64,000 nt of DNA from Halichondria panicea (taxonomy: Eukaryota > Porifera > Demospongiae > Suberitida > Halichondriidae). Positions 160-56,100 of the stretch are shown here, one piece after another. The notes under the pieces are model-generated. The model was not told the origin of the DNA. It did no database searches and saw only the letters and a program-made list of their open reading frames with translations. The stretch lies in assembly GCF_963675165.1 (NCBI RefSeq), contig NC_087386.1:3664169-3728168 (forward strand), given 5' to 3'. The stretch's first letter is position 1. Every line of letters begins with the position of its first letter. A program made the position numbers and the translations under genes.

Positions 160-2345
160 GCCGAACAAGTTTCAACCTTACACCAAAGAGAAAAGTGCTT
201 GGCAAAGCAATTGCTCGTCGAAGTAAAGCAAAGGTTGCTCAAGAGTGATTTAAAGATGAGAAAATACGAAAGCATATTATCAAGATCGTTGCATCAAGAG
301 TAAAATCAGAATTGGTAACGCTTTGTAAGACATCACAGAATTCAATTTTGCTGCTTTTCATTCACCTATTTTGTTCAACATTTTGCAGCAGTGTACAGCT
401 ACCAAAATTCCTCGATCCAATAGAAGCTTTGTAATCGGAATGTGTGCTGCTACTTTATGCAAGCGAGTCTTCTACACAAAATTGTGTCGGGTCACTGTTC
501 AAAATTGTATATATAGAGTGCATGTCTGCAATTCTATATTCATTTGCTTTATAAATAGAGTATAATCCTTCATGTTAACGAATTCTACAGGCATTTTCAT
601 TCTACAGGCATTTCACAAACTTGGGGTTGTGATATCGAGAAACTAGGTGAAGGACATGGAAACTTTGTCACAGCAGAGAAGTGGGGTAACACAGCTAGAT
701 ATGTCTCGGTGGTGACATGCTAGAAGATGAGGATACGTGTCAAAGCCGAATGCTTGGATAATCAATCTGATGTTTGTAATATTATGGACATGTCAATTCA
801 AAGCTCTGAACTATTTGATTTCTCACCAATTATTCGCCAGCGGATACACTATCAGAAAACGGACTCTCCAAGAGAGCATTGGAATTCAGCCAATAAAAGC
901 GATTGTGACCAAATCAATTTACCCAAGCCTTGGCATGGTTTTACTATCGTTGACGATAATCTCGACATGAATGTTCATCGTCGACATGTGAGAATTGATC
1001 AGCAGACACGTTCTCTTCATCACTTTCAATGCTATGCCGTATCTGATGATACCCCCCACAGGTTGTAAAATGTATTAAGACTGAGAGTGATTTATTGCTG
1101 GACAACTTCGCAATATTGTTGGCTGTGTCAATATGTCACCTATTTTTCGAAGACGCTATTGATCAACATATCACCCATAAACACTCAAAAGAAATGTCAC
1201 TTAAGTCAGAAATTGTAAGTCATATAATTATACATGTACATACTTAGAGGTATAAAAAATTATAGCTTCATGTGTGCATGCATGTTTATTATGTGTGTAA
1301 TGCAGAGTTCATAAAATATATTATATAGGCTCCTCTAGGAGTTATTTTGAAAAACGAAAGTATAAGAAGTGATTTGATTCAAGAAGTTCTACAGAAATAT
1401 GTACCATCACAAGGCAACAGTGGTCACACTCTTTTGTTTCGTGGTGATGCCTCCCGTGCAAGGAGTTGTGCTGAATTGAGAATAAACTCAGACGATGCGT
1501 TTGGAAGACTGCAGACATTTATACCGAAGATTGGCACACATTTGGAGTAATTTTGAAGGTATACGAAGATATAAGACTGTCATGCATGCGTGTCAATATC
1601 TATGATTTGATGCAGGTGATGTGGAACCAGCTTTATAACCGAGGGAAACTGAAGCATCTACCTGCTGACCCAAAGGCAAACTTCCATGCCTGCGATGTTA
1701 CAGTTGTAACCGCTTATTTTCTAGTGTCAGCAATGAACATGCTGGGCATGAGGGCATGACTTCATTTCATCATATGCCTCAAATTGATTCATTTGATGAA
1801 AATAACTTGGATGAAAACGTGTGAGGAGAGGAAACGTGTGAGGAGAGGAAAGAACTTTTGTATACTTTTTGCAAGAAAGTTCCATGTTAATTTATCTTTT
1901 GTTACAAAGCCAACAGACCACCACCAGAGAGATGGGGTACTAGAATATGCTAATGAGTTGATGACACTAGGCATGCTTTTTATTAACTACAAGGATGCTG
2001 TACAAGAAGGAGATGGCTTCAGCTTATGGAAACATCTTCTACCAATTTTTCGTTTCTCTGGTCGCAAAAACTACTCTGTCGAAGTTTTACTTACGTTGTA
2101 TCAGTTTTACTACGCTCGTCAATTTTTATGGAGCAGGTTTGTGAACACACGTGGATTACCATCTAGGAATAAGGCTACATATGGAATAAGCTGTGTAAGG
2201 ATTGTATATCAGCTAACAAGTCAACATCCGCTATTACAAGAATTGGGAAGGCCCTTTTTACAATATCACCGAGGTGTCCAGTGTTAGCACAAAGTTTGGA
2301 ACTTGACATCAAGAAAGTTTCCAATGAGTTACTGACTAGCAGTGT
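160..2345 (+). pseudogene. DUF6589-domain gene, decayed
   Basis: Fragments in several frames line up in the order expected of the DUF6589 family, a domain of unknown role found in multicopy animal proteins. Seen: an N-terminal helical part near 240-410, a part with IVDDNLDMNVHRRHVR and SLHHFQCYAV (about 900-1045), a part starting APLGVILKNE after a GT-AG intron (about 1216-1329), a part with VMWNQLYNRGKLKHLP after a second short intron (ends about 1614), and a C-terminal part with DGVLEYANELMTLG and FSGRKNYSVE. Frame is lost several times: a few bases are missing near 1535 (between IPK and DWH), a 17-bp duplication lies at 1818-1851, and bases are missing near 2170 (before the NKLCK part). 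Probably a dead copy of a repeated family. The family call is from memory of its motifs. Confidence 0.7.
1818..1851. repeat. exact 17-bp tandem duplication
   Basis: Two identical 17-bp copies, head to tail (1818-1834 and 1835-1851), inside the DUF6589 pseudogene. The extra copy shifts the reading frame. Confidence 0.95.
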
Positions 2346-2904
2346 GCTTAAGAAACCATAGTTACTTCCCTACAGAAACAATACGAAGTGAGATGCAATG
2401 GTGAAAACATTGAAATTAAACGTGACAAAAAGTGCAAAGCTTCACAAAAAGATCTCATTTGGAGCAAACGAGATGAGATTTCAGAGCAGCCGCCTAGATG
2501 ATGTTGAAAACCTTCTCCAATCTATCTGCATTTTGTATTGAAAATCAGTCCAACAATCTTTCTGACCGAACAGCGAATGGTAGACCATTTAGAGGTAATT
2601 GTTTCTTTGCTTTGGTAGTTGTACTCAGCGTGAAGAATGCTGCAGTGTCAACAAGGTTATCTTATCAATGAACCAATGAACGAACCGATGATACTAGCTG
2701 CAATTTCAGTTTTGCCTCAAGGTAACAATCTGAAACTAGAAACTAGAGACGTGGATCATTTAGAGTTATGGATTAACAGTTAATTTTGTTCATTAGAATA
2801 TAAGCCAAAAAAGAACTATTTAATCATGTATGAAAAATCAAGACATTCAATATCAAATTCACAGGCTTTACATTGGCATTGCCTAGTACAAATGTCACAG
2901 CACA
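2346..2904. other. no gene recognised
   Basis: AT-rich sequence after the DUF6589 remnant. Up to about 2550 it may still be decayed 3' sequence of that gene; beyond this nothing was recognised. Confidence 0.4.
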
Positions 2905-53100: not shown

Positions 53101-56100
53101 ACTACCAGGAGTGCATTCATGCACTCCTGGTACTACTATCTACATACGTACATCAAGCTTCAGGGATCATGTTAATTAAGACTGATATGCATCGGTGTTT
53201 CTTTGCCAGGCAGTCAAGTTATCGAATACTCACGAATTGCAAAGCAAAGGCGCTTGCTTACTACCCGTGCTAAGCAGATGGACTGATCTCTAGGGAAGAT
53301 TTACCAGATGGCACCCATTTGTGAGGCACAGTGTCAACCTCTGGTCTGGCTACAAAACGATCAGGCATACATGTGCTTCCTTTGTTAGTTTCAGAGCCCG
53401 GGAACAAGGAGAGCTATTAGCCAATTTTTACTAAAACTTGATTTTTGTATTGTGTTTATTCAGTATGCAATTGCTCAATTACTGAAACATCAATAATCAA
53501 TAACGACAACTAGAGCACTGAAGTCCGACCGCTCGGCTGGTGACAAGATTATCAGAAGAGTGATATAATGCAGCGCATGAGGAGAGACTGAACTGTCTAG
53601 CATAGCAACTCAGGAGTGAATAAACTAAACCATGCAACATGCTGATATTTGAGAACAGAGTAGATATGCACTGTGGACTAGGATCAGCATAGAGTCTCAG
53701 AGAGGTATGGTTCCTGGAGTAGGATCCCAGAGACAACAAACCAGTCACAATTCTAGCTTTCTATTGTTGTGACCCTTTTCCATTGTTCCTGGTACGGGAA
53801 CACTTCAAATACGTAGGGTACTTTGAATAAAAGCTGCGTGTAGATACATGTAGCTAGTTGCCAACGTGCAAGTTCAAGTTTTATACGACAACAATGCTTT
53901 AAACCGAAATCTGCCACAGTTAAAATTACAAACAAACAGACCAACATACCGTACCGTACAGCGGGAAATTTTCTTGAGGCGCGTTTTTCGAGGGCAGACA
54001 GAATACCCGAAATTAAAACTGGCCCATGCACCGGTATTTCACATGCAAAGCTATTGGTGGGTGTGATTTCCTGGTATTGAAACGCGAATATTAGCCTGCT
54101 GGAGCCAAGTAGCACCCGCAAAAATTTCCCTCTATACGATATACCCGTGGCCACCCACGCACGCTTCGGATAATTATTGGGGAGGGGGGGGGGGATCGAG
54201 TCCTTTCAATTTTTTAATTTTTGGTCATGTAAGGACAGCTGATACATGTAGCCTTATCGCAAGGCTAGTGTCAGCTGTTACTCTGTTAAAATAATAGGTA
54301 ATCAACATTGTGATTTTTTACCCGAGGCGCGTGTGGGAGGCCACGGGTATAGTAGTCCATTGGAGTCCATTGGTTTGTTTGTGAGTCTACTCACGTGGAT
54401 TCCATTGCACAGTGTTTACAGCATGAACAGCCTTCACACAACAAGTTATTAGTTTAAGTTATTAGTAGCAGATTTTGATGTTAAAGCCTCGTTATCGAAT
54501 AAAAGCGAGCAAAAGCTAACTTGCACGTTGGCCAGAGCTAGCTACGTAGATACATGTATACGCGGCTTTAATTCGAGGCACTATTACAGCCACATGGATA
54601 CATAATTATTTGTTTTGGGAAAAGACTCCAGGCTTCTACAGGCTTTTTTGCTGTATACTGTGAGCCTATACTCCGGTCCCACAGCACGTCAGCTGCCTGC
54701 ACTGCAAACTATCACATCCAGATGAGTAGACTCAGAATACACAGACCGACAGACAGACTACTATACCCGCTGGCCGCGGCACGGCCTCGGGTAATAACGG
54801 TACAGGACTCCCAGAGTGCATGTCAGGTGTATAGCATTTTAGGCCTCTTTCTGCTGACTCTGCTGTGAGTCCTAGTGTAATGTCTGACCATGCACCACTA
54901 ACCGTTTTCAAAGCCATATGTCATAGCGTTCAAATAGTTTAAGGTAGTTGCCGCCGCTTCGTTCTTTCATGTTCATGTATATACTTCCCGCATCATTACC
55001 TGCTTGGTTGTACTGAGATGTAAAACAGCAGAGGGTATAGTACTTCAGTGCTCAACCTGCTTCAATTATTGGGCCCCTTATATTGACCACATGATTGGTA
55101 CAACAGAGTTGCTACCACTAGGTTACTTATTCTATCTACCACATCCATTCCGTTGTGACGATATTGTTTGACTGAGCTTATAACAATATTGTTATCTGAC
55201 AAAAGTAGCGCATGTGTAAGCAGTAGATATCAGGTCCACCTCTGGGAGGAAGGGATCAAGGCTACACGTGGGGGAGCAGCAGCCATTAATAACAGAGTTC
55301 GAAATCTCATGCACCATTTCTTGGCTTAGGCGCTCTGATGACTTGACACTCGATTTCTTCGCCAATCACCAATTGTAAGGTTTAGAAATACATGTATACA
55401 AGACTTACTTGTACCTTTGACCTATTAGACAAAAATCAGCCCGGTGGTGACAAGGCTAAGCTAGTATAAACTGCATGTACATACTCACTTTCCATCCTGA
55501 ATGTTCTGATAGATTTTCTTCGCAGTCTCTATGAACACATCTTCCACGTTGTCACCTCTGTATATAAGCCATCAACCCATACATGTAAGTGTATTGTACA
55601 GTATGTGTGTGTGTGTAAGAAATACATTGCAATTCCCCATTCAACATGCACAACTAATTGCCACTTACGTTTTAGCACTGGCTTCCATGAACAATAAACC
55701 TATAGGATATAAATCCGTGATACGACAATACCTGGATGTATATTTCACTCCAATTCACTTACCATTTTCATCTGCAAATTGCTTTGCTTCTTCATACGTA
55801 ACATCTCTCTGTTGCAAAATTATATATTACATATTGCACATCATTATAACTGGAGGACAGTAATACAGTAGCTGTCAATATACAGTAGCTGTCAATACAG
55901 TAGACTCTCGTTAATCCGGATAGCGAGGTGGCTGTATCTCAGGAAATAGCCGCGGCTTAAAAACGACCTTACCTCGAATCTAATGACTACTTTTGCAGTT
56001 CTTGTCTCGAGGATAATGAATCATTATGTTCTCTATTTAAAGTGTAATCCAATTTTATTTGCTAAACCACACCCAAAACGTCATATCTGGCCGTAATATA

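Follow-up and report, generated by a model that had tools for sequence, protein, structure and literature searches.

Short tandem duplications with a preferred unit of 17 bp in mid-chromosome zones of the Halichondria panicea genome

A stretch of 64,000 nucleotides from the sponge Halichondria panicea (contig NC_087386.1, here C10, positions 3,664,169 to 3,728,168; the window) carries numerous short head-to-tail duplications, with a strong preference for a unit of exactly 17 bp. These duplications, their lengths, junctions and chromosomal distribution, and the kind of DNA break that could have produced them are the subject of this analysis. The open reading frames (ORFs) include TRIM-NHL-like and kinase-kelch ones, which we take to be of animal type.

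Duplications with a 17-bp unit in the window

Fifteen primitive perfect runs of period 17 were found in the window, compared with 1, 3, and 1 at periods 15, 16, and 18, respectively. All 13 perfect 17-bp duplications named in the original prediction are among them, two with corrected starts (1815 instead of 1818 and 55863 instead of 55864), along with two further runs, at 4216 (GT-rich) and 27435 (2.9 copies). The imperfect pairs previously placed at 582, 6376, and 11635 are present as well, with starts at 580, 6375, and 11633 and with 2, 1, and 2 mismatches; two more were detected at 12221 (1 mismatch) and 5499 (3 mismatches), and imperfect copies with 1 to 3 mismatches are few overall. The features are as follows (no strand is assigned to any of them):

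580..613, 17-bp tandem duplication, 2 mismatches
1815..1851, perfect 17-bp tandem duplication, within ORF 1760-2287 (DUF6589 match farther along)
5499..5532, imperfect 17-bp tandem duplication, 3 mismatches; true 17-bp insertion relative to 7 sister copies
6117..6150, perfect 17-bp tandem duplication
6375..6408, 17-bp tandem duplication, 1 mismatch
7116..7149, perfect 17-bp tandem duplication
8297..8331, 17-bp tandem duplication, compound: 10-bp insertion and 2-bp deletion relative to the family consensus
8474..8507, 17-bp tandem duplication, exact 17-bp insertion relative to 20 sister copies and to the other palindrome arm
8549..8572, 11-bp tandem duplication, exact insertion relative to the family consensus
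11633..11666, 17-bp tandem duplication, 2 mismatches
12078..12111, perfect 17-bp tandem duplication
12221..12254, 17-bp tandem duplication, 1 mismatch
12343..12377, perfect 17-bp tandem duplication
13170..13203, perfect 17-bp tandem duplication
13267..13300, perfect 17-bp tandem duplication
27435..27483, period-17 array, 2.9 copies, excluded from the isolated set
33533..33566, perfect 17-bp tandem duplication
38319..38354, perfect 17-bp tandem duplication
48363..48396, perfect 17-bp tandem duplication
55863..55897, perfect 17-bp tandem duplication

Some of the earlier descriptions hold only in part. The duplication at 8474 is indeed confined to one arm of a palindrome, the other arm showing an exact 17-bp gap; for the duplication at 8297, a single copy is likewise present in the opposite arm, but the net gap is 8 bp. 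The element at 18.3 to 24.1 kb, described as lacking duplications, has none at 17 bp but does contain isolated ones of 8, 9, and 10 bp (periods of at least 8). Periods other than 17 had been said to occur only a few times each; 17 is the mode, but periods 9 to 16 jointly outnumber it, 97 to 27, in all sampled DNA. Although the 17-bp duplication at 33533 and an 11-bp duplication at 35248 have a word in common, their contexts differ by eye, and a common origin was rejected in favor of chance.

Length spectrum and junctions

The sample consisted of ~322 kb of the genome (131 Mb, 39 contigs), window included; the tally lists 329 kb, which reduces to ~322 kb of actual sequence once the N runs in the fetched loci are discounted. 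Isolated perfect tandem duplications with a period of at least 9 were counted after exclusion of an array in locus L013 (2000-2750), low-complexity units, a 23-bp unit in the satellite at 37674, arrays of at least 2.7 copies (hence the run at 27435), and runs with periodic flanks. Locus L019 was entered as 5 kb owing to its N run, and L024 (at 0.463 of its chromosome, with 7500 of 10000 bases N) contributes to the total but to neither the mid-chromosome nor the arm group.

Among the 129 duplications so defined, 27 have a period of exactly 17, compared with 8 at 15, 8 at 16, 3 at 18, and one each at 19 and 22; relative to the neighboring periods 15, 16, 18, and 19, the excess at 17 has a binomial P of 2e-8 in all ~322 kb. 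According to the original prediction, the lack of a genome-wide excess at 17 bp would refute it; in the sampled part of the assembly, the peak persists beyond the window. With the window left out, 14 duplications have period 17 and 16 have the four neighboring periods together (P = 9e-4); among the last seven loci to be fetched, the numbers are 5 and 5 (P = 0.03). The length distribution has a near-ceiling at 17 to 18, with only 5 of the 129 exceeding 17. When junction microhomology is added to the period, each value from 9 to 16 is represented 8 to 12 times, 17 is represented 24 times, 18 17 times, and 19 3 times, with 6 beyond. No two of the 27 period-17 units are alike.

Such duplications do not arise by chance at this rate: 20 order-4 Markov copies of the window averaged, per 64 kb, 0.9 duplications with an 8-bp unit and 0.1 with a 9-bp unit and contained no longer ones, and order-3 models of four sets yielded at most 0.3 per set at 10 to 13 bp. 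An additional peak at 8 bp, the length of the P-element target duplication, was considered as well. In the window, 0 to 14 kb, there are 11 duplications of 8 bp compared with 4 of 7 bp and 0 of 9 bp; in L023 and L026, 2 of 8 bp compared with 8 of 7 bp. Because the peak is missing in these two loci, it is not claimed.

An exact length could also be left by excision of a transposon family that generates a 17-bp target duplication, with both target copies remaining in place, as the original prediction had suggested. Excision would yield such a length without microhomology, but direct repeats of exactly 17 bp separated by a spacer are not in excess (5, compared with 12 at 16 bp and 7 at 18 bp, in 309 kb that include the 5 kb and 7.5 kb of N in L019 and L024), and the 9- to 16-bp duplications and the deletions described below would be left unexplained. 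No transposon superfamily is known to generate a 17-bp target duplication, and we give excision hardly any credence.

The junctions differ between the length classes. Mean microhomology is 0.58 nt at periods 16 to 18 (n = 38) and 1.63 nt at periods 9 to 15 (n = 89; Mann-Whitney P = 5e-4). Random duplications have 0.72 to 0.77 nt, and therefore the 16- to 18-bp class is at chance level. This chance-level microhomology at 17, together with the presence of two copies (by selection, since arrays were excluded), speaks against microsatellite-type slippage repeats. Deletions of at least 6 bp in two repeat copies of the window (8150-9000 and 5099-5820) have 0 or 1 nt of microhomology in 9 of 10 cases, the remaining one, in 8150-9000, having 6 nt. 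By their junctions, the deletions beside the duplications thus resemble products of nonhomologous end joining (NHEJ).

These data bear on two further explanations. Replication errors, by slippage or by ligation of unprocessed Okazaki flaps, could produce short duplications with an upper size limit, and the 9- to 15-bp class does show microhomology; however, they would account neither for a sharp peak at 17 with chance microhomology nor for NHEJ-like deletions in the same repeat copies, and we regard them as improbable. Similarly improbable is aborted target-primed reverse transcription, in which the endonuclease of a non-long-terminal-repeat (non-LTR) element would nick the two strands ~17 nt apart and the gap would be filled without an insert. 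Target duplications of non-LTR elements have lengths in this range, but they usually vary widely, with no peak at a single value; moreover, the boundaries lack a TT/AAAA-type motif as known for L1, and the unit starts are T-rich, not A-rich.

Repeat copies and chromosomal zones

Repeats in the window that have sister copies elsewhere in the genome offer a view of the state before duplication. Four were compared (no strand assigned):

5099..5820, copy of a second repeat family, used in a consensus comparison
6460..6810, third repeat copy, with a single 8-bp tandem duplication (6486) relative to 4 sister copies
8150..9000, palindromic copy resembling a miniature inverted-repeat transposable element (sister copies ~900 bp), used in a consensus comparison
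12613..13030, fourth repeat copy, without insertions or deletions (indels) relative to the consensus of 4 sister copies

The palindromic copy at 8150-9000 belongs to a family of tens of copies and differs from the consensus of 20 fetched sister copies by 10 substitutions in 813 sites; within the same 0.85 kb, it has six deletions (28, 24, 10, 6, 10, and 7 bp), exact 17- and 11-bp tandem duplications, and one compound event (8297). The 20 sister copies (17.6 kb) jointly contain one 6-bp insertion and, by our own count, 11 internal deletions of at least 6 bp, in a set mostly made up of the best-scoring of ~40 listed copies and hence biased toward intact ones. Of these copies, 17 are at least 97% identical to the consensus over aligned sites, and the other three are 94 to 96% identical. 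Eight further query-spanning copies that were not fetched are 881 to 902 bp long, near the full 900. The copy at 5099-5820 shows a similar pattern, with 11 substitutions in 696 sites, four deletions (38, 9, 14, and 17 bp), and two insertions (5 and 17 bp). What these comparisons show in the two copies is an excess of indels without an excess of substitutions, and the paralogues show that the tandem duplications are true insertions, that is, the derived state. Because the four repeats of the window differ (one duplication at 6460-6810 and none at 12613-13030), the indel excess is strong but not uniform.

Five perfect tandem duplications of at least 8 bp were detected in the 35 fetched repeat copies (25.8 kb). 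An 8-bp one common to L031 and L032 and a 14-bp one in L044 do not appear as insertions in the sister-copy alignment. A 17-bp duplication common to L050 (C10:5332800-5333580) and L051 (C10:3101369-3102153) coincides with a 17-bp insertion in the alignment (two of the seven sister copies of 5099-5820). These two copies lie 2.2 Mb apart and also share a 10-bp deletion; apparently, they form a subfamily descended from a duplicated master copy. The duplication appears to have been copied with the element and is therefore no assembly error.

This shared insertion is one of several reasons to consider a fixed-overlap artefact of assembly or polishing, also raised in the original prediction, unlikely, indeed barely credible. 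The window does begin immediately behind 5000 N. However, some duplications carry later substitutions, deletions co-occur with them, and their density depends on position across chromosomes; the dense loci L026, L062, L063, L066, and L067 are free of N, and apart from the run before the window, N occur in the fetched loci only in L024, where duplications are not dense.

The duplications are distributed unevenly along chromosomes. At 0.50 to 0.55 of chromosome length, there are 110 per 139 kb, compared with 18 per 180 kb in the arms, the mid-chromosome set including the window and loci picked beside the window and beside L026. Among the arm loci, 17 of 18 have 0 to 2 duplications per 10 kb, and L003 has 4. 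Conversely, the dense loci are L023 (16), L026 (19), L062 (5 in 5 kb), and L063 (4 in 5 kb), together with the initial 16 kb of the window (23), and all five lie at 0.516 to 0.526 of chromosomes C10 and C12, with L062 and L063 chosen because L026 was dense. On five further chromosomes, 2 kb each at preset positions around 0.52 contained 4, 2, 1, 0, and 0 duplications, that is, 7 in 10 kb (P = 2e-4 relative to the arms). Within L026, young repeats (3211-4292 and 4639-7177; 97 to 99% identical to their best other copies) have no isolated duplication and either arrived later or were spared.

We infer that the dense zones extend over tens of kilobases and are possibly centromeric or pericentromeric in nature. 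The 5000 N directly before the window (L019:5001-10000, C10:3659169-3664168) fall in the densest duplication zone of C10, and the 7500 N of L024 fall in a locus that is not dense, its 2.5 kb of called bases containing a single duplication; both N runs may be assembly gaps.

The window also contains a 20-bp repeat whose arrays, at 36471-37730 and 43274-43766, are inverted relative to each other and lie ~6 to 7 kb apart. Elsewhere, this unit forms paired inverted clusters of ~0.5 to 1.4 kb at several places in the genome, similar to the subterminal repeats of DNA transposons. The repeat (36.4 to 43.8 kb) was rejected as a centromeric satellite, given that it occurs in dispersed clusters, at least several on some chromosomes, rather than one per chromosome.

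Proposed staggered breaks and comparison with known systems

The origin that we consider probable is recurrent double-strand breakage with a 17-nt stagger, the duplications being scars left once the breaks were filled in and end-joined. In this mechanism, the two strands would be cut 17 nt apart, recurrently; where both complementary 17-nt overhangs are filled and the ends joined, exactly the 17 bp between the cuts would be duplicated. Overhangs that are trimmed, or that pair by a few bases, would give rise to the shorter duplications of 8 to 16 bp, and further resection would lead to deletions. Breaks concentrated in zones of tens of kilobases near mid-chromosome would then cause a fast gain of indels alongside ordinary point substitutions. 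Microhomology in the short class, its chance level at 16 to 18 bp, and the NHEJ-like deletions argue for end joining with a long complementary overhang. Thus, of the ways in which the original prediction envisaged a single mechanism with a fixed 17-nt offset, the filling of staggered breaks is favored, on the strength of the peak, the near-ceiling, the chance microhomology, the NHEJ-like deletions, and the derived state. The breaks, the fill-in, the polarity of the overhangs, and a nuclease behind them are proposed on the basis of these patterns.

Several observations weigh against this interpretation. Tip pairing, by a deduction made within this analysis, predicts that period plus microhomology equals the stagger, but the pile-up at 17 among the shorter duplications does not reach significance (9 compared with 5.9 expected, P = 0.13). 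No clear cut-site motif was found at the duplication boundaries, only a weak purine/A bias of the units: after orientation fitting, their information is 4.20, whereas matched random sets have 3.26 +/- 0.34, and 1 of 300 such sets reaches the observed value; with 6 or 10 flanking bases included, 6 and 12 of 300 do so. The spectrum differs among zones, with 17 bp accounting for 1 of 16 duplications in L023 and 9 of 23 in the first 16 kb of the window. Not all mid-chromosome samples are dense: L064 and L068 have no duplications, L020 and L022 have one each, L025 (at 0.543 of C7) has three, none of 17 bp, and on C10 the density drops to ~1 per 10 kb by 0.532 to 0.535, contrary to a simple mid-chromosome rule. 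As for the repeats, the sister copies of 8150-9000 were chosen with the bias stated above, some sister copies of 5099-5820 elsewhere have several deletions as well, and the copy at 12613-13030, ~2% off its family consensus, has zero indels in spite of lying between two dense duplication clusters, so that it was either inserted later or spared. Finally, no natural example of a 17-nt stagger behind such end-joining duplications was found in the literature, and the closest experimental precedent differs in overhang length, as described below.

A candidate for the nuclease, and not a finding, is a P/THAP9-type transposase. The window contains one relevant feature:

29925..30923, + strand, ORF with a partial P/THAP9-type transposase domain (PF21787), a candidate enzyme type for a 17-nt stagger

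Off-target cuts by such a transposase or a domesticated relative would be a special case of the staggered-break mechanism: one such cut would produce 3' overhangs, 17 nt long and complementary, for fill-in and joining. The cuts of P transposase are described in PMC7776569 and PMC2895639 as staggered by 17 nt, an unusually long offset, and as leaving 3' overhangs; the match with the present case is one of length only. The genome contains 46 PF21787 matches, all above the curated cutoff; eight have an equal score in the top range, five of them in 570-aa open frames. However, the known cuts of P transposase are at the terminal inverted repeats of the element, and the units would be expected to resemble such repeats; the 17-bp units are all different, with a weak shared bias only. 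Furthermore, no reason for mid-chromosome zones is known, and the PF21787 matches are scattered over many chromosomes. We therefore regard this attribution as doubtful.

Equal-score copies with 570-aa frames are located, for example, at C1:5068183-5068602, C1:8778506-8778925, C9:703865-704284, and C12:3402884-3403303. The equal scores suggest recent amplification.

A broader and likewise doubtful scenario is offered tentatively. An endogenous nuclease of little sequence specificity whose stagger is fixed at 17 nt, perhaps a transposase of the P/THAP9 type or one of its domesticated derivatives, would repeatedly break a central, perhaps centromeric, domain, which would evolve mainly by 17-bp duplications and deletions, not by point mutation. 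A sharp natural length of 17 would be a fingerprint of one break-making enzyme. The zonal concentration, combined with ordinary substitution levels, would make break-driven evolution of central chromosome regions testable by a genome-wide count.

No published description of a 17-bp preference in tandem duplications was recognized among the records listed by literature searches. The nearest natural parallel comes from rice, where short duplications reportedly have a favored length of 31 bp, are partly tandem, and are said to result from excision repair. In the summary given in PMC7407515, the short natural duplications of rice (Vaughn & Bennetzen 2014) are ascribed to nicks on opposite strands. 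Both cases involve natural short duplications with one favored length; here, the length is 17 bp, and the duplications are exactly tandem and regional. With P-element and THAP9 cleavage, as portrayed in PMC7776569 and PMC2895639, the present case has the 17-nt length in common, along with the domains in the genome, but known cuts are at the inverted repeats of the element, whereas the 27 units are all different, with a weak shared bias.

The closest mechanistic counterpart is experimental. Breaks with complementary protruding ends are described, in PMC8355091 and PMC5730883, as giving rise to tandem duplications by fill-in and NHEJ, with DNA polymerase theta (Pol theta) products carrying microhomology; Schimmel et al. 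2021 (PMC8355091) and 2017 (PMC5730883) attribute small tandem duplications to fill-in by CST and DNA polymerase alpha plus NHEJ. As in those accounts, the duplications here span nearly the whole presumed overhang without a need for microhomology, deletions occur alongside, and a minority has microhomology, there ascribed to Pol theta. Two differences emerge. In PMC8355091, the overhangs were at least 43 bp long and set by paired Cas9 nicks, whereas here there is one natural length, 17, and it is zonal. In PMC5730883, Pol theta duplications were generally larger than NHEJ ones; in the present data, by contrast, microhomology goes with the shorter duplications.

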